IMG/VR virus record: IMGVR_UViG_3300049783_000355
Span: 1 to 28,579 of that record
Origin: a virus
Reading direction: 5' to 3' (one strand)
Length of the DNA stretch: 28,579 nucleotides
Part shown: positions 7,000 to 26,683 of the stretch, one piece after another
Layout: each line of letters starts with the position of its first letter
How positions within the stretch are numbered: the first letter of the stretch is position 1
Made by a program: the position numbers and the translations under genes
The notes under the pieces: model-generated
Told to the model about the DNA's origin: nothing
The model's database searches: none
Seen by the model: only the letters and a program-made list of their open reading frames with translations

Positions 7000-7191
7000 T
7001 TAGTCTGCTCTGCTTACAATGATTAGTGTGATGAATAAGATGGCTAGTACTAACACCACAGGTCCATACAAAGGCAGCATAACTAACCACCAGCTCCATG
7101 TTATCACGTTAGTTAGCTTAAGCCCTATAAACAACACAGCTAATAAGCCGAAGAAACCTACACCGCTACTACTGCTACTTGAATTACTCAT
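7000..7191 (-). CDS. Small two-helix membrane protein
   Basis: This 63-residue protein has a Ser-rich N-terminus (MSNSSSSSSG) followed by two hydrophobic helices, about 12-31 (VGFFGLLAVLFIGLKL) and 36-58 (WWLVMLPLYGPVVLVLAIL). The sequence type GFFGLL..LFI.LKL..VI.WSWWWVL.PL is common among small phage and bacterial membrane proteins of unknown role. Its ATG shares one base with the preceding stop (TAATG). A holin-like role is possible from size and topology, but the gene sits far from the endolysin and in the early block, so I leave it unnamed. Confidence 0.75.
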   Translation of the reverse strand: MSNSSSSSSGVGFFGLLAVLFIGLKLTNVITWSWWLVMLPLYGPVVLVLAILFITLIIVSRAD

Positions 7192-9455: not shown

Positions 9456-9564
9456 CGTAATCCTCCTCCGCTCTTAGTTGTGCATGACAGACAGTACAAT
9501 GAGTGTCTGTAGCGCCTTCGTCATCGTCCCAATAGTCGTTGCAGCAGTTGTCACATGTACTCAT
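9424..9564 (-). CDS. Short zinc-ribbon protein
   Basis: I choose the ATG at 9564, which overlaps the preceding stop as ATGA, giving 46 residues starting MSTCDNCCNDYWDDDEG. A longer in-frame reading would run back through the upstream gene. CDNCC (C4, C7, C8) and CTVC pair as a four-Cys zinc site across an Asp/Glu-rich loop. The C-terminus is charged (RAEEDYDERIRNQWQG). Such mini zinc ribbons are common in phage early operons; the role is unknown. Confidence 0.7.
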   Translation of the reverse strand: MSTCDNCCNDYWDDDEGATDTHCTVCHAQLRAEEDYDERIRNQWQG

Positions 9565-12859: not shown

Positions 12860-13996
12860 CTAATCTACAGTGTGTATTAAATGTAACCCGTTAGTCTCTA
12901 TAGCCTGCTCCAGCGTCTCTCCCCATGTAGCATAGAACTTAGCACCTCTGAAGTTATCCATGTTCGTCCACGTTACAATGTCTATGTAGTTCTCTTCAGA
13001 GCCGTAGACTGTACTGTAAGCAGGCGGTACAGCCTCTCCTATGTTTATAGGACGCCAAGCATCTTGAGCAGCAGGTAGCTTTATAAAGGCTGTACCGCCT
13101 ATCTCAGCGCCTACCCACACTCTAAGAGTATTATCAAGCTCCTCAGCCCTAGGCACCACTTTAGCCTTACAAGTGAAGGCGCTACTAGACGTCTTAAACA
13201 CACCAGGCTGTAGCGGCACTGAATAGCCATTGAAGCTCCTAACCACCATAGCTTCAAAGAACGGATGAGCCAGGGATGCAAAGCCTAAGCCGAAGTAACC
13301 TCCATCGCCATACTCTTCACCCCAGCTGTTCAGGCACAAGAGCCTGCTGTGTATCATGCTACAGCCTACAACGCGCACTAGATGACCTCCTACGGCTCTG
13401 TTGTCCTTATGCTCTGGTAAGTATTGATGCTGCTTCCAAGGACCAGTTAAGTCATAGATGCTAGGTGTGACAGGAAAGGCTATCTCAACTGTCAAGCCCT
13501 CTTGCAAGCATGAGCGTATGTTATGTACAATGTCAATCACTGTCGCAGGCTGTAGCGGCTTCTTAACAAACTCGTAGCGATCTACTAAGCGCAGTGCTGA
13601 CTCCTCATAGATGTCCTTAGGAGGTTTAACATTGTCTAAGTCTTTGTCGTATGGGTAGTCATCTTCAAAGCATACACCATCTCTACTAGCTACCTTGTAA
13701 GCGTTGCGTGTGTACAGCCCTTCCTCGCCTAAGCGTCCTGAATAGGACTTAGTCATGTTGTACAGCGCCATACGGCTATAGTCTTCAGGGACGTTGTTAC
13801 GCTTCATAATAGTTTCTAAGCTGCCTAACAAGCCGTTGACAACACAAGAGCCTATGTCGCCTTGGTCTTCCACTTCATAGACATACTCGCGTAGGTCGTG
13901 TTCCTCGTCAAGCTCTTCAGGTTTATAGGGAGACACGTATGCAATGTCTCTAATGTCTTTTGGTGAGGCGCTTACGCCTGCTATGGGGTATTTCAT
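12860..13996 (-). CDS. Papain-like (C1-type) cysteine protease
   Basis: The protein has 378 residues. The catalytic set of the papain fold is in order: DQGDIGSC (oxyanion-hole Q45 and nucleophile C51), GGHLVRVVG (H205) and LNSWGEEYGDGGYF (N223 in the NSWG motif). The enzyme core spans about residues 30-255. Residues 265-378 are an extra domain of unknown fold, with Trp-rich strands (RVWVGAEIGGTAF, YIDIVTWTNMDNFRGAKFYA). There is no signal peptide and no inhibitory propeptide like that of cathepsins, so it should be active in the cytoplasm as translated. It lies between the polymerase-linked gene and SSB, so it is expressed early or mid infection and is not placed with the head genes. Possible targets are host proteins or a phage precursor. 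The substrate cannot be told from sequence. Confidence 0.92.
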   Translation of the reverse strand: MKYPIAGVSASPKDIRDIAYVSPYKPEELDEEHDLREYVYEVEDQGDIGSCVVNGLLGSLETIMKRNNVPEDYSRMALYNMTKSYSGRLGEEGLYTRNAYKVASRDGVCFEDDYPYDKDLDNVKPPKDIYEESALRLVDRYEFVKKPLQPATVIDIVHNIRSCLQEGLTVEIAFPVTPSIYDLTGPWKQHQYLPEHKDNRAVGGHLVRVVGCSMIHSRLLCLNSWGEEYGDGGYFGLGFASLAHPFFEAMVVRSFNGYSVPLQPGVFKTSSSAFTCKAKVVPRAEELDNTLRVWVGAEIGGTAFIKLPAAQDAWRPINIGEAVPPAYSTVYGSEENYIDIVTWTNMDNFRGAKFYATWGETLEQAIETNGLHLIHTVD

Positions 13997-14358
13997 TGTT
14001 GTGTTTCCTTTGCTGGTTGTTGGTGCTTGGCTAGTAGAGGGCTATCAATAGTAGGTTCTCCAGAAGGCGTAAAACCAATCTTTAACTTGGCTTTCATCTC
14101 GTTCAGATAGGTGTAGTCCTCTTGCTGGGCCTTTACAGCTATTATTCCAAGCATTACACACGCCTCGCTAAAGCCCATTAACAACTCAGCCTTATCAGCC
14201 TCAAGCTCGGCTATGCGCTTATCCTTTTGCTCTAGGGCTTCTTTGCAGTCAGTGAGGAGTTTTAAGCCGCTCTGTCTATCTACGTCCACCCAAACTTTAG
14301 GCGCGTGTCTTTTTAGCGTATCTTGTTCTGCTTCAAGTCTTTCAATCAATTCATTCAT
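13993..14358 (-). CDS. Coiled-coil protein coupled to DNA polymerase
   Basis: I place the start at the ATG at 14358 (121 residues, MNELIERLEAEQ...), which overlaps the polymerase stop as ATGA and has GGAGA upstream. A start 18 bases earlier is possible but would read into the polymerase end. Residues 1-70 are mostly coiled coil (ERLEAEQDTLKRH, EALEQKDKRIAELEADKAEL), and the rest is helical then Pro/Gln-rich. Translational coupling to the polymerase suggests matched amounts, but no role is evident. It overlaps the protease gene by 4 bases. Confidence 0.7.
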   Translation of the reverse strand: MNELIERLEAEQDTLKRHAPKVWVDVDRQSGLKLLTDCKEALEQKDKRIAELEADKAELLMGFSEACVMLGIIAVKAQQEDYTYLNEMKAKLKIGFTPSGEPTIDSPLLAKHQQPAKETQQ

Positions 14359-16046
14359 CAATGTGTCTCCGCCCAACTGTCGCCTATTTTGTATTCACCG
14401 TCCAGAGGACAGCGCATGTTGTAGTAATCACCAGCGTCTCTAATAGCTTGTACGCCCATCCTTCCTACAGTGTCTGCCAAGTACTCTGGAGCCTCCACTT
14501 GAAGCTCATCATGCACGTTAGCAACTACGCGAACTATATCATACAAGCCGTTCTCACGTAAGCGATCAGAGAATATTATTAAGGCTCTCTTCATCAACAC
14601 TGCTTCGTTACCTTGTAGTAATGTATTCAAAGCTCTGTACACTTCTCTAATCCTAAGCCGTCTACCGTCTAGAGCAGGTACAGACTTGTTACGTGACGCT
14701 ATCTTCTCTATTGTTTCAATCAGTTTCTTTAGAGCTGGGTTGTTCTTCAGAAACTTCTTCTTCAACGCAGCTCCCTGTGTTGCTGCTCCTCCTACAATAG
14801 CTCCTAGAAGTTTACCACCACCTCCAAAAATAAAAGCATATATGAAAGTCTTAGCTTGGTCTCTATTACTTAAACCTGCTGTATTCATGTTAGCTATGTG
14901 GATGTCACCATTCAATATAGTATCTATGTATTCTTTGTCCTGCATATAGTGAGCTAATATGCGTAGTTGTATACCACTAGCGTCAAAGCCAACTAACTTG
15001 TTACCCGGGTCAACTATCCAGCACTCCCTACACCGTTTACCGTACACCTTATCCTTAGACGCTGAAGGTATCTGAGCCATGTTAGGGTTAGAATGCGTCA
15101 TACGCCCTGTGACAGCTCCACAGCCTATCACCTTGCCTCGCACTCTACCATCAGGCTCTACACACTCTAGCCACTTACCAACTAAGCCTACGAGCTTCTG
15201 TAGCTTTAGATACTTAGCTATCATAAGAGACTCTGGTGTGTCTAAGTCTTTCAATACAGTTTCATCTATCTTGACACCACCACCGTCAGTCTTCTTAGTA
15301 AACTTAACGCCTATAGTGGCTAGGCGCTCTGCCACTTGCACTCTGCTGCCTACGTTGAACACTTCTACACCGTCCGCTAAAGGCTTACCAGACGTCTTGT
15401 GATATCGCTTAGTTATGATAGGAGGAAACATAGCCTGCATAGTTGCCTCAATCTCTAGCATCTCTGTATTAAGCTCGCTATAGAATAGATTAGCCTTGTC
15501 TATGTCTAGCTTAAACCCTGTGTCACGCTGCCTACGAAGCTCTACAGCCGTCTTATGCTCAAGCTCTACACAATCCCCTGTGAAGCCTTCCTTAGCTAGT
15601 AGAGCCTCTAAGTGCTTCTTGAGCTTAGTTGTGATGGCTACGTCCTGCTTTGCATAGACAATCATACGAGCTTGCCAAGCATCTATAGTCTCTCCCTCAG
15701 CTGGTGCGTCATAGTCTGTGAAGTCTCCTTTGGGATAGCCTAGCCGCTGACCCCAGGCATATAAGCTATGACCACCGCTAATAGCAGGGTTATACAAGCG
15801 ACTGAGTAGTATTGTATCGACATGCCTAAGCTCTCCTGTGTCACAGTCCCAGCAATTGCGAAGTACAGGGAGATCAAAGTCAATGCCGTTGTGAGTGATA
15901 GTTGTATCATAGTTCTCTAGCCTCTTAGAGACAGCAGCGCCGTCTCGGTCAATGAATGTGTTACCTTCTGAGTCTTCACCAGCGCATATCCATATATGGT
16001 CGTGCGTTGTCGTAGTTTCCAGGTCTAATGTGTACTCTTTATTCAT
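14358..16046 (-). CDS. Family A DNA polymerase with 3'-5' exonuclease, T7-like but without the thioredoxin-binding loop
   Basis: This 562-residue protein is the replicative polymerase. Proofreading motifs: LDLE (D8, E10), THNGIDFD (N53, D57) and YAKQD (Y131, D135). Polymerase motifs: A, FDASGIQLR (D355); B, RDQAKTFIYAF (R395, K399, Y403); C, VHDE (H512-E514). Tyr403 matches T7 Tyr526, the residue that allows dideoxynucleotide use. At motif A +5 it has Gln360 where T7 and Pol I have the steric-gate Glu. The thumb insertion that binds thioredoxin in T7 (roughly 75 residues) is reduced to a short loop around 208-230 (PPIITKRYHKTSGKPLADG), explaining much of the size difference from T7 gp5 (704). 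The gene shares its ends with its neighbours and follows the methyltransferase-like gene. Confidence 0.96.
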   Translation of the reverse strand: MNKEYTLDLETTTTHDHIWICAGEDSEGNTFIDRDGAAVSKRLENYDTTITHNGIDFDLPVLRNCWDCDTGELRHVDTILLSRLYNPAISGGHSLYAWGQRLGYPKGDFTDYDAPAEGETIDAWQARMIVYAKQDVAITTKLKKHLEALLAKEGFTGDCVELEHKTAVELRRQRDTGFKLDIDKANLFYSELNTEMLEIEATMQAMFPPIITKRYHKTSGKPLADGVEVFNVGSRVQVAERLATIGVKFTKKTDGGGVKIDETVLKDLDTPESLMIAKYLKLQKLVGLVGKWLECVEPDGRVRGKVIGCGAVTGRMTHSNPNMAQIPSASKDKVYGKRCRECWIVDPGNKLVGFDASGIQLRILAHYMQDKEYIDTILNGDIHIANMNTAGLSNRDQAKTFIYAFIFGGGGKLLGAIVGGAATQGAALKKKFLKNNPALKKLIETIEKIASRNKSVPALDGRRLRIREVYRALNTLLQGNEAVLMKRALIIFSDRLRENGLYDIVRVVANVHDELQVEAPEYLADTVGRMGVQAIRDAGDYYNMRCPLDGEYKIGDSWAETH

Positions 16047-16669
16047 TAGCGTTGCTCCTCAACATAAGCAGACCATTGTAACGCCATTGCCTCTGCAACA
16101 CCAGTGTAAGTTGTGCTTCTTATCTTCCAGCGATCTTTGCTAGGAGGTAGGTAGTGTATGCGTTGTCTCTCTTGTATCGTTAGCTTCATCATCTCCTCGT
16201 AGACATCGTCAGTAGTCTCTAACGCTGGTAAGTTATGTAGCGTTAGCCCTGTCTTCTTCTGCTCCTTATGCCCAAACTGATAAGGCTGTATATAACTAGG
16301 CTTAGGAAGGCTTGAGAGCCTAGGTAGTACGCCTACAGGGTTTTCTAGTGCTACGTGGCCGCTATACTCTATCGCTGTCTCCCATAACTCCTGAGTCCAT
16401 CGTACAGCGTCTAGTCTCTCCTGGTACTTAAGCATACCAGTGCCATAATGGCGATTACCACTAACTGCTAAGGCTGTACAGGGAGGATGCAGTATTATAA
16501 TGTCCCACTGCCAATCAGTTATAGCATCTAATACGTCCCACTCCATATGATAAACGCTGTCGTTATCGTCAGGCAGTAAGTCACAGCTGTAGGCATTGTG
16601 TCCTAAAGCTCTAAAGGCTTCTCTAACTGTGCCGCTAAACTCGCAGCCTATTAAGACATTTAAACTCAT
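16046..16669 (-). CDS. DNA cytosine-methyltransferase-like protein (short, phage type)
   Basis: The 207-residue protein has a Rossmann start (NVLIGCEFSGTVREAFRALG), an acidic second strand (CDLLPDD), HPPCTALAVSGNR (P63-C64, the catalytic PC of C5-cytosine methyltransferases) and ENPVG (E109-N110, equivalent to the ENV motif). These are the SAM-binding and catalytic motifs, but the target-recognition domain of restriction-type enzymes is missing and the protein is about half their size. Phages often carry such short proteins, and they may methylate DNA or modify free or incorporated cytosine. The ATG is preceded by GAGGAG. It sits between primase-helicase and polymerase and is coupled to the polymerase start. 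Confidence 0.82.
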   Translation of the reverse strand: MSLNVLIGCEFSGTVREAFRALGHNAYSCDLLPDDNDSVYHMEWDVLDAITDWQWDIIILHPPCTALAVSGNRHYGTGMLKYQERLDAVRWTQELWETAIEYSGHVALENPVGVLPRLSSLPKPSYIQPYQFGHKEQKKTGLTLHNLPALETTDDVYEEMMKLTIQERQRIHYLPPSKDRWKIRSTTYTGVAEAMALQWSAYVEEQR

Positions 16670-16692
16670 TTCACATTCTCCTCAATTAGTGC

Positions 16693-16757
16693 TTTACAGC
16701 TTACACGATATAGTGTACAATCTGACTGTCTCCGGCGCCAATGCAGCCCCTCTATAG
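16693..16757 (+). promoter_or_regulatory. Rightward promoter plus conserved transcribed segment, copy A
   Basis: On the plus strand: -35 TTTACA (16693-16698), a 17-base spacer, -10 TACAAT (16716-16721), predicted start at G16728. A segment at 16724-16757 (starts GACTGTCTCC, ends CAGCCCCTCTATAG) matches copy B at 19842-19875 in 30 of 34 positions at the same distance from the -10. It lies in a 93-base gap inside the leftward operon and points against it. No + strand ORF follows, so the product would be a short or antisense RNA. Confidence 0.65.
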
Positions 16758-16762
16758 CGCCC

Positions 16763-16927
16763 TCATTGTATGTCATAGTATTCAACATCTAAGTCATAGC
16801 CCTCATTAGCATCAATGTCTCCGCCTAGTATGCAAACCTCACAAGTATCTAGAGGCTCATCAGTCATTGTGTCAACTAATGAGAGTTCATAGTCATTCAA
16901 TAGTATGTCGCAGCATTTACATCTCAT
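16763..16927 (-). CDS. Short zinc-finger-like protein
   Basis: The protein has 54 residues (MRCKCCDILLNDYELSL...). CKCC (residues 3-6) and CEVC (29-32) form a four-Cys zinc-binding pattern, followed by an acidic tail (GGDIDANEGYDLDVEYYD). The ATG at 16927 overlaps the preceding gene by 11 bases. The gene was found by reading the gap between the 16917 stop and the methyltransferase. It ends six bases from copy A of the rightward promoter element, whose transcript would run antisense into its 3' end. Confidence 0.75.
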   Translation of the reverse strand: MRCKCCDILLNDYELSLVDTMTDEPLDTCEVCILGGDIDANEGYDLDVEYYDIQ

Positions 16928-17321
16928 TAGCTTGTAGCTCCTTAGTATAGATCAATGTAGGCTCTTCATCCTCTTCATACCTGTAGTGCCCTATATGACC
17001 ATCATGTTCTATGTAGGGTTTTATAAAGTCAATGAATAGGGCTATCTCATCATCATAGTTCTTTAGGTCTGAGCGTGTAGTGAAGTAGACACAGCCCCCT
17101 ATGTCGTCATCTATAGCTTTAGACAGTGCAAACGGTGTAAAGTTATAACTACTACAACTACCTAGCATATCCCACCGCTGACATTCAAAGAAGGGATGTT
17201 CTGGTAACTCTTCAGGTTCTTCCGTACCTCCGTTAAACATATAGAGTATAACGTTCTTTACAATCTCAGGTGTATCTCGTCTTAACGATGCTGACATATA
17301 TAGTTCTGTATACATTCCCAT
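16917..17321 (-). CDS. Conserved-type phage protein starting MGMYTE, unknown function
   Basis: This is a 134-residue acidic protein. The MGMYTELYMSASL start and the aromatic-rich centre (HPFFECQRWDMLGSCSSYNF) are reminiscent of small phage proteins beginning MGMYTE, for which no function is known. The C-terminus has a polar, Tyr-rich helix (FIDFIKPYIEHDGHIGHYRY). The start overlaps the helicase stop by one base (TAATG-type). A host-directed or accessory role is possible, but nothing decides it. Confidence 0.7.
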   Translation of the reverse strand: MGMYTELYMSASLRRDTPEIVKNVILYMFNGGTEEPEELPEHPFFECQRWDMLGSCSSYNFTPFALSKAIDDDIGGCVYFTTRSDLKNYDDEIALFIDFIKPYIEHDGHIGHYRYEEDEEPTLIYTKELQANEM

Positions 17322-19063
17322 TATAGTGCTTCCTCATCAGTGTTATAAGTTGTCTCTAACATTCTACCAGTGCTCTCATCAAAGCGCAAGTGTCCTGCTA
17401 CGCCTCCACCACCTCCGAAGCGCATCTTCAGTCCTCTAACGGTGGTGATGTTCCTCTCTTCAGGGTCTTCAGCCTGTCTATTACCCTCTAGCGCCCATGC
17501 AATGTTAGAGAGCTGTATAATAGCGCCTGAGCCTCTAGCCTCTACAGCCTGTACTCTGCGTCCTTCATCGTGTCCTTTGCCCTCTGAGGGCTTCCTAAGA
17601 TGGCACACGTTAATCAATGTGACGTTAGTGGACTCCACCAGCTTCCTAAGTTCGTGCATGGTAGCGTCAATGGCTTCACGTTCGCTGACGTTCCTAGAGT
17701 TAGCTGTCAAGCCCACCAGGATGCTAATATGATCTAGTACAATGACGCTGCAGTCCTTAGCCCTAGCTAAGTAGTTCATCTTGCCTATGACGCTCTCGAC
17801 AGTTATGTGACCTTCATGGTCTAAGAAGAGAAACCTGCCGTCCTCAAACACTTCCTTGTACGCTGCCTGCTTGTCAAGCTGCCGTTGCTCTGGTGTTACG
17901 TCATCTAAGAAGGGCTTTTCAACCACACGAGACTTGTCATGCAATATAGCCTTCATCTGCTCTACAGTGGGTAAGTGAAAGCGCTTATTAGACTTCAGAG
18001 ACATCATTGACAAGCCAGCCACCTCTATAGACTCCTCTAACGACAGTACGCCTATGTTCTTGTTGGTGTCGTCATAGATTCCTTTGATGATTTCCTTAGT
18101 GAATGTAGACTTACCAACGCCTGAACCTGCTAAGACAGTGATAATCTCTCCAGGTCGTATGCCGTAGCTCATCAGGTTAAGCCCATCCCAAGGATACTTA
18201 GCAAACGGCATCTGTACTGGCGCCATAAGAGCGTCATACATATCTGTGCAGCTTACAATACCATCTGGTGTATACTCCTTAGCATCCCACCAGTCGCGCT
18301 TGTAGGCTTCTGTAGCTCCTGCCTTTAAGTAGTCGCTGGCGTCTTTGTAGTCCTTAGTGTGCTTAACAATCTTAGACTTACCAGCAAATAATTCTGCCAC
18401 CTGTAATGCTGCTTCCTGACCCGGGGCATCGCTGTCGAAGTCTATGACAATCCCATCGAAGCTGTTTAGATACTCATAAGCCTCTTTACAGCTCTTTAGA
18501 GCGGCACTAGCACCATTCTTGATAGACACACAAGCATAGCGGCTACCTTGAAGCTGGAACGCCGCCATAGCATCCTCTTCGCCTTCTGTAACAGTGACGT
18601 ATAAGCCTCCCTCTTTGTTAATATGTTGTCCAAACAAAGCTGCTTCCTTCAAGTCACCAATACAGCTAAATTGCTTATCAGGCTTTCTAATCTTAGCAGC
18701 CACTAGCACGCCACTAGCTGAATAATATGGATAGACAATAGAGCCTTTGTGTTCAATACAGCCATATGAGTTCATTGTAGGCGCTGTAATGCCCCTGTCT
18801 GGTCTATTAGAGGCGCTTCTAAGAGCTATTAAGCCTTCTAAGGCCTCAAGTGTAAGGGAGCCGCTATACGATGACTTAGAGAGCTTCTGAGGGGCTTGTA
18901 AAGCTTCAGTGCCACCGCTAAACTCTAGCATCTTAGTAGTACTCTTCCACTTATCAGTCTCGGCACAGCCTGCAAAGCAGAACCCCGAGCCGTTATCGTT
19001 CCTAGCTAGTCCGTCTGAGCTTCCGCAATCTGGACAGGCTAGACCGGTGTCTGTGAAGCTCAT
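17321..19063 (-). CDS. Bifunctional primase-helicase (T7 gp4-like)
   Basis: The protein has 580 residues. An N-terminal zinc finger (CPDC at 10-13, CFAGC at 29-33) reads the primer template. The TOPRIM primase core has VTEGEEDA (E160) and IDFDSDAPG (D208, D210, D212). The C-terminal RecA-type helicase has Walker A AGSGVGKST (312-320), Walker B VIVLDH (D444) and downstream LINVCHLRKP and EARGSGAI motifs (H488, R510), as in the DnaB/gp4 family. It unwinds the fork and synthesises primers for lagging-strand DNA. The motif set is complete, so it is probably active. Its start overlaps the preceding gene (ATGA). Confidence 0.95.
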   Translation of the reverse strand: MSFTDTGLACPDCGSSDGLARNDNGSGFCFAGCAETDKWKSTTKMLEFSGGTEALQAPQKLSKSSYSGSLTLEALEGLIALRSASNRPDRGITAPTMNSYGCIEHKGSIVYPYYSASGVLVAAKIRKPDKQFSCIGDLKEAALFGQHINKEGGLYVTVTEGEEDAMAAFQLQGSRYACVSIKNGASAALKSCKEAYEYLNSFDGIVIDFDSDAPGQEAALQVAELFAGKSKIVKHTKDYKDASDYLKAGATEAYKRDWWDAKEYTPDGIVSCTDMYDALMAPVQMPFAKYPWDGLNLMSYGIRPGEIITVLAGSGVGKSTFTKEIIKGIYDDTNKNIGVLSLEESIEVAGLSMMSLKSNKRFHLPTVEQMKAILHDKSRVVEKPFLDDVTPEQRQLDKQAAYKEVFEDGRFLFLDHEGHITVESVIGKMNYLARAKDCSVIVLDHISILVGLTANSRNVSEREAIDATMHELRKLVESTNVTLINVCHLRKPSEGKGHDEGRRVQAVEARGSGAIIQLSNIAWALEGNRQAEDPEERNITTVRGLKMRFGGGGGVAGHLRFDESTGRMLETTYNTDEEAL

Positions 19064-19652: not shown

Positions 19653-19782
19653 TAGTGTTCTCCTTAGCTTCTATGTATTCAGTATATGCTTTAGTAACAG
19701 CATTGCTGTATTGTATTATAACCCTGTTGCGCTCAGCTATAGCTTTAAAATAATCAGCGCAAGCTTTTTCTAATCTGCTCAT
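19645..19782 (-). CDS. Small helical protein, unknown function
   Basis: This 45-residue ORF (MSRLEKACADYFKAIAERNR...) is read from the ATG at 19782 to the TAA at 19645-19647 and overlaps the next gene by 8 bases. It is predicted to be almost entirely one amphipathic helix. The ribosome-binding site is weak (AGGT about 7 bases upstream). It is the first gene after the intergenic element at 19807-19875. Moderate confidence because of its size. Confidence 0.6.
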   Translation of the reverse strand: MSRLEKACADYFKAIAERNRVIIQYSNAVTKAYTEYIEAKENTND

Positions 19783-19806
19783 AATAATACCTATATAGTT
19801 AATTGA

Positions 19807-19875
19807 GTTGTTTACAACATCTTAAATGTATGCTATACTCCGATTGTCTCCGCCGCCGCTGCAGCCCCTCTATAG
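19807..19875 (+). promoter_or_regulatory. Rightward promoter plus conserved transcribed segment, copy B
   Basis: On the plus strand: -35 TTTACA (19811-19816), a 17-base spacer ending TGC, -10 TATACT (19834-19839), predicted start at G19846. The segment 19842-19875 is the partner of copy A at 16724-16757 (30 of 34 identical). A 12-base inverted repeat GTTGTTTACAAC (19807-19818) covers the -35 and could be an operator. The element fills an 87-base gap in the leftward operon and overlaps the stop codon of the small membrane-protein gene. Confidence 0.65.
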
Positions 19876-20007
19876 TAGATTGTCTGTAATACTCCTATGT
19901 GAACTATCGTACACTATAACATCATGGTCGTAGGCTCTAGAGTCTAGCTTACCTGCTGCGTAGGTTAGTAGTGCTATGATGGTGATTGCTGTCAGTAGTA
20001 TTAGCAT
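19870..20007 (-). CDS. Small single-helix membrane protein
   Basis: This 45-residue protein starts at the ATG at 20007 with AAGGA about 8 bases upstream. Residues 2-16 (LILLTAITIIALLTY) form one transmembrane helix, followed by a short polar domain (KLDSRAYDHDVIVYDSSHRS). The size and topology resemble phage proteins that act at the host membrane early in infection, but no family is recognised. Its stop codon lies inside promoter element B. Confidence 0.65.
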   Translation of the reverse strand: MLILLTAITIIALLTYAAGKLDSRAYDHDVIVYDSSHRSITDNLL

Positions 20008-20033: not shown

Positions 20034-20336
20034 TTAGTGGTCTGAGGCTATGAAGCCATCTGTACCATCTATGTATATAACAACTGTATTGTCTTCTATG
20101 TCTTCCATAGATGGATAGTCAGCGGCTCCGTATCTCTCCTGGTATTCTGCTAAGCTCTCGTATTCTGTCCAGTAGCAACATAGGCTAATAACATCTAATT
20201 CGATGTGCTCGCCCATGTCGTCACTTAGTTCTTCTAAGTAGTCAAACAAGGCTGCTAAGCCGTCATAGCTGAAGTTATCAGGGCGTGTAGTTCTAAATGC
20301 TTCTCTGAAGTCGTGTATGTTCACTGTAGTTATCAT
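20034..20336 (-). CDS. Small acidic early protein, unknown function
   Basis: I choose the ATG at 20336 (100 residues, MITTVNIHDFREAFRTTRPD). It has AGGA upstream inside a leader that is also found before the clamp gene. The longer reading would start within that leader. It is acidic throughout (LEELSDDMGEHIELDVISLC, DYPSMEDIEDNTVV) with aromatic residues spread across it. Proteins with HDFxxxFxxxxRxxNFSYxGLxALFxYLEE are known to me as phage small proteins without assigned function. It lies directly after the sliding-clamp-like gene. Confidence 0.65.
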   Translation of the reverse strand: MITTVNIHDFREAFRTTRPDNFSYDGLAALFDYLEELSDDMGEHIELDVISLCCYWTEYESLAEYQERYGAADYPSMEDIEDNTVVIYIDGTDGFIASDH

Positions 20337-20382
20337 GGTTGTATAGTCCTGTTTAGTGTTTATGTGGTGGTTGTACTGACTA

Positions 20383-20431: not shown

Positions 20432-21022
20432 TTAGACTTTGGAGTATGTTGGCAGAGCGTCACTAGCTATTTCAGAGTCTTTATCTATACGCATAGGCAT
20501 GATTACTAGAATACCATCAAGAATAGACGACTCAATCCTTATAGAGCTGCTAGTACCTCTAGTGTATATACCTACTTGAGCGCGCTTACCGAACGTCTTT
20601 TCTATCCTGGCTAACAGTGAAGCATCAAAGCATAGGAAGTTACTGTACTCATCAGACAGTCTAGCAGGTATAACTCGCTTGTAGTCTGGGTACTTACCAT
20701 CAATCTCTATACACTCTAACACCTTGTTACCTGCTCTAACTATGCCTTTGGTGGTAGCACTGCCTTCGATGTCGTCTAGCTGTATATTAACAACACTAGC
20801 ACTAATCGGAATAGCTCCCTTAATACTTAGTATAACGTCACGGGGTAGTGTATCACAGTCCTCCCACGTATGCTTACCAACAAAGCACGTATGCCCGTCT
20901 GTGCCTACTATGTCACCAGTGGTGGTGATGAGTATACCAGTTAAATAGTATCGAACGTCTTTAGTGGCTTGGTTAGCCATTGCTGCTCTAATTATACTAG
21001 CGTTTATGTTTAAGTTTATCAT
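20432..21022 (-). CDS. Sliding-clamp-like protein: reduced DnaN (beta) with two domains
   Basis: The protein has 196 residues. The first part has RYYLTGILI, GTDGHTCF and ECIEIDGKYPDYKRVIP. In DnaN clamps these are the middle-domain pattern (yL.G......TDGHRL, then LI.GkfPDY..ViP). The second part (FDASLLARIEKTF to VIMPMRID) ends in VIMPMRI, matching the DnaN C-terminus (VVMPMRL in E. coli). Both partial domains follow each other, and the N-terminal third of the usual three-domain, roughly 370-residue clamp is absent. Two domains per chain would need three chains to make a six-domain ring, like PCNA (inference). It should tether the polymerase to DNA. The ATG lies in the duplicated leader. The tail after PMRI is a short Ser/Asp-rich extension. 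Confidence 0.75.
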   Translation of the reverse strand: MINLNINASIIRAAMANQATKDVRYYLTGILITTTGDIVGTDGHTCFVGKHTWEDCDTLPRDVILSIKGAIPISASVVNIQLDDIEGSATTKGIVRAGNKVLECIEIDGKYPDYKRVIPARLSDEYSNFLCFDASLLARIEKTFGKRAQVGIYTRGTSSSIRIESSILDGILVIMPMRIDKDSEIASDALPTYSKV

Positions 21023-21049
21023 GGTTGTATAGTCCTATTTAGTGTTTGA

Positions 21050-21244
21050 TTAGTGGTTATTAATCCATCTGCCTAGCTCTATAACTGCTAGCGCATATGA
21101 CTCCTTAACATTATAATATTGTGCATAGTTCTCCACTGTCAAGCTATTTCTCACCCAATCGAGATAGTATTGTTCAGCCAGTGGTTCATTGAATAAGGCG
21201 TCTTTGATGGTGCATTGGTTGAGCTTGTCCTGGATTGTTAGCAT
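21050..21244 (-). CDS. Small early protein, unknown function
   Basis: This 64-residue protein (MLTIQDKLNQCTIKDALFNE) overlaps the previous gene by 7 bases and has AGAGG upstream. It is helical with aromatic positions (EQYYLDWVRNSLTVENYAQY) and a hydrophobic end (YALAVIELGRWI). The central VENYAQYYNVKESYAL could be a short helix-turn-helix (a family pattern SVExxAxxYxVs.xxA), but too little is present to call it. It is encoded just before the clamp-like gene. Confidence 0.65.
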   Translation of the reverse strand: MLTIQDKLNQCTIKDALFNEPLAEQYYLDWVRNSLTVENYAQYYNVKESYALAVIELGRWINNH

Positions 21245-21710: not shown

Positions 21711-22300
21711 CTGTTTATTCAATCTATTTACTATTTAATTACACAGCCCTATTAACTACATAACATCAACACAGACAACACAGCTACTATACAGACTACA
21801 CAGCTACACAGGATGTTAACAGCTATACATAGATGGCATAGCTATACAGATCAATACAGTCTATAGGGTACTACTCTGCCCTACACACTCCACAGTCTGC
21901 TAAGCACTGGACAGACTCCATAGCCTCTGTAGTTATCAGTTACTATATAGTGCAATGCTCTGTAGCCTATACAGTACGTGGCCTGTGGAGACTGCGTAGC
22001 CTGGGTAGGGCGGTGAGCTATCGAGGGGCGGGGGAGTTATGGAGCTTCGGTGATTGTTACGGTAGCTACTAAGACACAAAATAGGGCTAATTAGGCTTTA
22101 TAAGGCAGAGAGCTACACAGGCTACACAGAGCTTCTAAGGCTATGATAACTAAGGAGAAGAGGCGGCGGCTGCGGAGGCTGTTTAAGCTGCTGAAATCCG
22201 CATAGAAAGGGAAGCTGTATAGACTATAGAGTCTTAGGTGTTGCATGCATAGACAATAGAGGCTTATATGCTTCATTAGTGAAGATAGATGAGATAGTGC
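21711..22300. other. Non-coding control region between the divergent operons
   Basis: About 590 bases with no convincing gene. It contains many short direct repeats of the type CTACACAG and CTATACAG (clusters at 21778-21850 and 22110-22130), a G-rich stretch (GAGGGGCGGGGGAG near 22023-22036) and a 6-bp hairpin AGTCTG/CAGACT near 21894-21917. Placement between divergent promoters with iteron-like repeats makes it a candidate for a replication origin or regulator-binding region, which is inference. A 20-codon + strand ORF at 22143-22205 encoding a highly basic peptide is discussed in the findings but not called as a gene. Confidence 0.5.
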
Positions 22301-22329
22301 TTGACATTTAAGGCAAAGTATGCTATAGT
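22301..22329 (+). promoter_or_regulatory. Rightward promoter of the late operon
   Basis: Perfect -35 TTGACA (22301-22306), a 17-base spacer ending TGC, -10 TATAGT (22324-22329). The same hexamers, spacing and TGC are found at 26590-26618, and a close variant at 19811-19839, so this is a recurrent promoter type of the phage. The start would be near 22336, leaving a leader of about 200 bases before the TerS-like gene. Confidence 0.85.
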
Positions 22330-22533
22330 GTCTCCACAGTTTAACACACTCTATGTAGACTCTGCACTAGACAGTCTTCTACATAGCTCTCTGCTCTCTA
22401 GAGTAGAGGGTTATTAGTAACAGGTTTTAACCCTCCTCTTTAAACAACAGCGTCTCTGCTGTGTATGTCGTTGCTTTAGTCCTATATACCTTGTGTTGAC
22501 TACTTACTACACAGACTATATAGAGAGCTTAAT
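22330..22533 (+). promoter_or_regulatory. Long structured 5' leader of the late operon
   Basis: Two hairpins are visible. The first has the 9-bp stem CTATGTAGA/TCTACATAG (22351-22386) and can be extended past a small bulge by ACT/AGT-type pairs. The second is the 8-bp stem GAGGGTTA/TAACCCTC, extended by AGAG/CTCT after a 2-base bulge (22400-22439), and is followed by TTAAAC only. It may stop or slow early transcription (attenuator) or protect the mRNA. No ORF lies here. Confidence 0.55.
22496..22524 (+). promoter_or_regulatory. Possible second promoter immediately before the TerS-like gene
   Basis: TTGACT (22496-22501), a 17-base spacer and TATAGA (22519-22524), with hexamers matching consensus at 5 and 4-5 of 6 positions. 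The predicted start (about 22531) would leave almost no leader before the ATG at 22534, so the mRNA would be nearly leaderless. It is either a genuine late promoter or a chance match. Confidence 0.4.
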
Positions 22534-26462: not shown

Positions 26463-26586
26463 ACCTGAGTTCGATAAAGCAATGAAAGAGATTAATGAGT
26501 TTGCTGTAGCAGTTAATAAGCGATTGGATGCGCTTGAAGCTGTCAAAGAGGCTCCTGCACCTAAAACAACACCAAAGGCTAAATAA
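26449..26586 (+). CDS. Small protein overlapping the portal end
   Basis: The protein has 45 residues (MVVTKPEFDKAMKEINEFAV...) with a helical middle and a Lys/Pro/Ala tail (APAPKTTPKAK). The ATG has GGAGGG about 8 bases upstream and overlaps the portal by 14 bases. The helical part (FAVAVNKRLDALEAV) could be a coiled coil. A packaging accessory role is plausible from position only. Confidence 0.7.
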   Translation: MVVTKPEFDKAMKEINEFAVAVNKRLDALEAVKEAPAPKTTPKAK

Positions 26587-26589
26587 AGC

Positions 26590-26618
26590 TTGACATTTGC
26601 GTCAAAGTGTGCTATAGT
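26590..26618 (+). promoter_or_regulatory. Internal rightward promoter in the late operon
   Basis: Perfect -35 TTGACA (26590-26595), a 17-base spacer ending TGC and -10 TATAGT (26613-26618). These features are identical to the late promoter at 22301-22329. It lies in the only sizeable gap (about 98 bases) between the portal-side genes and the scaffold-capsid group, so it should boost expression of the capsid genes relative to terminase and portal. Confidence 0.85.
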
Positions 26619-26683
26619 ACCGCCTATATATCACACTCTGATGTATGACGCAAGTAAAATAAACCATTAGGAGTTAGAACCCT

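Follow-up and report, generated by a model that had tools for sequence, protein, structure and literature searches.

A promoter-bearing element, in which a sigma70-type promoter is followed by a nearly invariant stretch of initially transcribed bases, occurs twice in the window (the whole stretch of DNA analysed, a 28.6-kb phage fragment of 28,579 nucleotides from a virus record), and a distant phage group keeps its sequence as one conserved whole, in the equivalent location. Because the promoter and the first ~25 bases are almost unchanged in two places of the window and in about ten distant phages, the element is, judging from its sequence, a real control element, which would most likely produce a counter-transcript or else start DNA replication. 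The most likely reading, held with moderate confidence, is that it would act as a regulated sigma70-type counter-promoter against the leftward replication operon, with its conserved start as the control site.

The replication operon runs leftward from about 22.3 to 4.0 kb and encodes a ribonucleotide reductase, a 5′-3′ exonuclease, a family A DNA polymerase, a methyltransferase-like protein, a T7-type helicase-primase and a clamp/RusA-like protein; rightward genes, encoding terminase and portal, begin at 22.5 kb. No RNA polymerase gene was recognized among the scanned window proteins of this record, which may be incomplete. Two of the leftward genes have almost identical 43-base leaders (20330-20372 and 21016-21058, 88%), and other apparent gaps of the operon (9456-9560 and 7100-7190) contain small open reading frames (ORFs), for a protein rich in Cys (MSTCDNCCNDYW..) and for a membrane protein rich in Ser (MSNSSSSSS..). 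The features considered below are as follows.

16693-16698, plus strand: -35 hexamer TTTACA of copy A, read from the sequence and found by weighted scan; identical in A, B and the distant relative L047
16716-16721, plus strand: -10 hexamer TACAAT of copy A, after a 17-base spacer; read from the sequence and found by weighted scan
16722-16757, plus strand: discriminator and conserved initially transcribed segment of copy A; start predicted at G16728; 30/34 bases as in copy B
19811-19816, plus strand: -35 hexamer TTTACA of copy B, read from the sequence and found by weighted scan
19834-19839, plus strand: extended -10 TGcTATACT of copy B, after a 17-base spacer; rank 3 of all window sites
19840-19875, plus strand: discriminator and conserved initially transcribed segment of copy B; start predicted at G19846
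16666-16788, minus strand: 40-aa ORF spanning copy A, a rival reading that may or may not be translated; two stops in frame in all ten relatives
17321-19063, minus strand: T7-type helicase-primase gene, between copies A and B (Pfam DnaB_C, Toprim_2 and T7 helicase-primase hits; phrog_239)
19738-19837, no strand: the 100 bases of the window with the highest AT content (74%), which overlap promoter B; they would be a candidate melting region were B an origin

Copy A (16693-16757) and copy B (19811-19875) lie 3.1 kb apart, and direct reading confirmed the features claimed in a preliminary description, namely plus-strand -35 and -10 hexamers with a 17-base spacer and a downstream segment in which 30 of 34 bases are identical between 16724-16757 and 19842-19875. 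This repeat is significant (self-blastn of the window, E = 2.2e-4), and a search of the window allowing up to three mismatches identified no third copy, with 0 expected in shuffled sequences. The 93-base gap said to contain copy A exists at 16670-16762, but it is also spanned by the 40-aa minus-strand ORF (16788..16666). The hexamers are near-consensus and lie within the 16-18 base spacing of sigma70-type promoters (TTTACA-17-TACAAT, TATACT or TATGCT). A simple consensus scan showed promoter-like sites to be no commoner in the window than in shuffles (25 vs 30.5); a weighted scan for sigma70-type promoters over all window sites on both strands placed B 3rd and A 9th, with 0.4 (B) and 2.1 (A) such scores expected in Markov sequences of equal length. 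Five of the nine best promoter sites fall in intergenic gaps, as defined by mechanical ORF cover, which make up only ~5% of the sequence. Since the two copies are probably homologous, their promoter matches do not constitute independent evidence. Ranks 1 and 2 were the late promoters 22301+ and 26590+; these late rightward promoters (22294-22350 and 26583-26639) have the form TTGACA-17-TGcTATAGT and a common spacer with a TTGAC..GTCAA-like dyad, which is a possible operator overlapping the -35.

Searched for directly, the element turned up in one other record only, the near-identical sibling L001. Distant relatives were gathered via polymerase and terminase (1.06 Mb). Five of the 16 single-nucleotide polymorphisms (SNPs) between the window and this sibling fall within 19888-19912, beside copy B, suggesting a short recombination tract. 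An nhmmer model built from A and B alone found the element of L047 (E = 1.8e-5 in the 1.06 Mb of relatives), a phage with 71%, 51% and 42% identity to the window in terminase, polymerase and helicase, respectively. A first motif scan had ranked the L047 copy among chance hits; a promoter scan then showed it to be real, with plus-strand TTTACA-17-TATGCT followed by CCGATTGTCAGCGCCGCCGGTGAAGTCCCT. This copy occupies a gap of 98 bases in the leftward operon, immediately upstream of the helicase gene region. Two pattern scans of a viral collection, one for the transcribed segment and one for the promoter plus segment, identified ten contigs of the L047 group that carry the element, including the L047 contig itself (L131). 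All nine with recognizable flanking genes carry the replication or terminase genes of the group, and L126, a short locus, was assigned by its DNA match to L131. Seven further contigs, which matched the transcribed-segment pattern only, are unrelated and without the promoter; four pattern hits in bacterial genomes all had unrelated flanks and were judged to be chance, and DNA and peptide searches of described phages found no homologue. The element is always oriented against the leftward operon, in a gap of 87-98 bases where this was measured (A, B and L047), and in B and the relatives it lies upstream of the helicase-primase gene. The comparison with related phages proposed in the preliminary description, for which loss of the segment beside retained flanking genes would have been the refuting outcome, did not refute it. 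Most relatives lack the element, and it is thus not essential to this phage type.

The loci of the relatives vary around the element. Directly after the core, a 20-base unit (GGTGAAGTCCCTACCGAGCA) is present in 2, 3, 3 and 6 perfect tandem copies in L126, L134, L136 and L130, respectively, the six-copy array being L130:6215-6335, and is single-copy in other relatives. Among close relatives (L124-L138), the small gene left of the element has been swapped at its start codon with the element unchanged; this gene behind the -35 has at least four unrelated N-termini (MSWRL.., MNEAY.., MEAHK.. and MEQLE..) and may occupy an accessory-gene slot. L005, which lacks the element, carries the palindrome GGTTAACGNCGTTAAC at least seven times in its replication region (2720, 2975, 3981, 4470, 4966, 6171 and 9000), and the DNA polymerase gene at L031:8079-10465 (also in L030) is matched in two pieces with ~830 bases between them, possibly an intron, intein or insertion.

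Among A, B and L047, the -35 is identical at 6/6 positions and the spacer is 17 bases long in all three lineages, with only 3/17 of its bases identical; the -10 is identical at 3/6 positions, each version still matching the consensus at 4 or 5 of 6. Identity amounts to 4/6 in the discriminator and 17/24 in +1..+24, with little beyond; between copy B and L047:5288-5317, these values are 6/6 and 19/24. As far as the letters themselves can tell, this is the signature of a promoter with a selected start and not of a gene. It supports the earlier proposal that selection acts on the RNA start or on a bound factor: the -35, the 17-base spacing, the discriminator and +1..+24 are kept in the distant group and the spacer sequence is not.

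If the element is a regulated counter-promoter, host RNA polymerase would fire from it rightward, against the leftward early/replication operon, and the discriminator together with the first ~24 transcribed bases (CnGAnTGTCnnCGnCGCCnnTGnAGnCCCT) would itself be under selection as a control site of specific sequence. This conserved start would be read, either as promoter DNA or as nascent RNA, by a protein of the phage or the host, and the reading would time or gate firing. No intrinsic terminator (a hairpin with a U run) was found in the 300 bases that follow A or B on the plus strand; a long unterminated counter-transcript through the replication operon would therefore be expected, and would lower or time expression of that operon through antisense pairing and colliding polymerases. 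The promoter ranks of 3 and 9, the ten L047-group contigs, the conservation of promoter anatomy, the fixed orientation and the lack of a surviving coding frame all support this reading, and the lower G-C skew of leftward genes to the right of the element, seen in all element-bearing loci and not in relatives without it, would be expected if something moves rightward from it. The antisense or regulatory small RNA of the preliminary description found no support in its compact form: RNA folding is ordinary on both strands (z-scores -1.1 to 1.7), Rfam gave no match to the element, and there is no close terminator of the kind that ends an intrinsically terminated small RNA, which together make a compact small RNA unlikely. 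Between the first bases of RNA B and the ribosome site of gene 13993-14376 (g13993), a pairing of 9-11 bases is possible, but no matching or covarying target was found in the phage relatives, and the pairing is therefore probably due to chance.

Several other explanations bear on the same block. It might be part of a small leftward gene (MLNTMTYNEGAIEGLHWRRRQSDC...), with the promoter match a by-product: gap A is filled by the ORF at 16788..16666, which shares ATGA with the following start codon, this frame is open in copy B too (IEGLxxRRRQS), and the differences between A and B are third-position-like. This is most improbable, however, as copy B has no ATG, GTG or TTG start, the part common to both copies differs in codon usage from the phage's genes (scores this low occur in 1.4% and 0% of true segments), the frame carries TAG and TGA in the ten relatives, and the 20-base tandem repeats in four of them would shift any frame. 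An open frame with a start was thus not found to be kept in relatives, and the minus-strand small protein was rejected on these stops and repeats. A plus-strand leader peptide was also rejected, its frames not being conserved between A, B and the relatives. Very unlikely, too, is a conserved gene-end sequence that aids module exchange as a recombination linker; the gene just behind the -35 does differ between relatives exactly at the start codon, and five SNPs against L001 are clustered within 25 bases beside B, but all five are synonymous in the neighbouring gene, and conserved promoter geometry with a free spacer and fixed orientation would be left unexplained. Binding of a phage or host repressor or activator to DNA spanning the discriminator and the first ~25 bp, switching the counter-promoter with the RNA sequence irrelevant, is an unlikely but less remote alternative, favoured by a conserved block that begins in the discriminator before the RNA start, by the absence of conserved RNA structure on both strands, and by the tandem repetition of the +13..+32 part 2 to 6 times in four relatives, as might be expected of a binding site. 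The conserved start nevertheless has no dyad symmetry or palindromic operator, no regulator of the element was identified, and such an operator overlaps the preferred counter-promoter, being one form of it.

The main rival is that the element is an origin: host RNA polymerase would initiate at A and B, and a T7-type replisome (helicase-primase, family A polymerase and 5′-3′ exonuclease) would begin leading-strand synthesis rightward, primed by the transcript or by the opened DNA. Transcription primes replication at the T7 primary origin. Here the T7-type helicase-primase and polymerase are encoded in the same genome, as for a T7-like transcription-primed origin, with no RNA polymerase seen in the window; the element adjoins the helicase-primase gene in B and relatives, and promoter B overlaps the 100 bases of the window that are richest in AT, although in L047 the AT content around the element is ordinary. 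Third-position skew in the leftward genes is +0.09 left of A, -0.07 from A to B and -0.29 right of B, with a change point near 19.26 kb (block-permutation p = 0.004), and the drop is present, also at fourfold sites, in element-bearing loci and not in architecture-matched relatives without the element. Against this, the skew minimum lies at 21.9 kb, at the change of gene direction, the late genes show a skew at fourfold sites opposite in sign to what a simple origin model predicts, and iteron-like repeats (ATGCAAnnATCATGCCAACTCTGA) in a noncoding divergent region of L047 (8540-8830) are a competing candidate origin. The expected RNA is C-rich, and a stable hybrid is not favoured. The GC-skew evidence comes from element-bearing loci of two lineages only, and genes of the g20034 family have C-rich third positions also where relatives lack the element, so that gene content confounds the skew. 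As proof of an origin, GC skew looked strong at first but was weakened by gene-content and fourfold-site controls, and the skew tests are mixed overall; their support for something moving rightward from the element is weak and confounded, and rightward transcription alone could also cause the drop. For these reasons (two lineages, confounding gene content, the wrong late-gene sign and the sufficiency of transcription alone), priming at A and B is regarded as possible but tentative. Restart of a T7 replisome from an RNA transcript that runs co-directionally is reported to be possible (PMC5997990). A rightward counter-transcript and a replication-primer transcript would both be possible products of the element. 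A more general proposal is doubtful: in phages that have a T7-type replisome but no RNA polymerase of their own, the replication origin or origin switch would be a host-polymerase promoter with a conserved GC-rich start, present in one or two copies next to the helicase-primase gene and firing against the genes.

Conserved noncoding control elements are rarely recognized in uncultured phages, and the present element, whose sequence and place beside the helicase-primase gene are defined and whose orientation is unusual, is directly testable. The preferred counter-transcript, if true, would represent a new way of timing replication genes; an origin, if true, would answer how DNA synthesis starts in T7-replisome phages that apparently lack their own RNA polymerase.

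The combination of one or two copies beside helicase-primase, orientation against the operon and a conserved RNA start was not found for a bacterial phage in the literature searched. The T7 primary origin promoters phi1.1A and phi1.1B are similar in that two promoters lie in the replication region with an AT-rich neighbour and a T7-type replisome. T7 has its own RNA polymerase, and its promoters follow the direction of the genes, in contrast to the host-type promoters here, which are 3.1 kb apart, run against the genes and are a candidate origin by sequence alone. As at lambda pR′ with its Q site and the HK022 put sites, as far as the available text describes them, function would reside in the promoter and first transcribed bases (PMC6606751, PMC9378689). 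Unlike those sites, the element has no RNA structure, with neither stable conserved stem-loops at the RNA start nor an Rfam match, no -10-like pause site conserved in all copies, no terminator shortly downstream and no recognized antiterminator gene. Transcripts antisense to phage genes, proposed to be regulatory, are described in the available text for Pseudomonas phages PAK_P3 (PMC4933390) and LUZ100 (PMC10134795), where no conserved initially transcribed segment is reported; those transcripts were detected by RNA-seq and lie mainly opposite structural genes, whereas the present one is predicted and lies opposite replication genes. The class I/II intergenic repeats of halovirus HF2, which together with these antisense transcripts are the closest precedents, are likewise short promoter-bearing repeats kept in sequence and place among related viruses (PMC8707807), as the element is kept at equivalent positions in the ten L047-group contigs; for HF2, the sequence around the start matters, long counter-transcripts were detected and there is no viral RNA polymerase (PMC8707807). 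The HF2 repeats differ in having archaeal TATA promoters in many copies, mostly directed along the genes, whereas the element described here has a sigma70-type promoter, is present in one or two copies and is directed against the operon.
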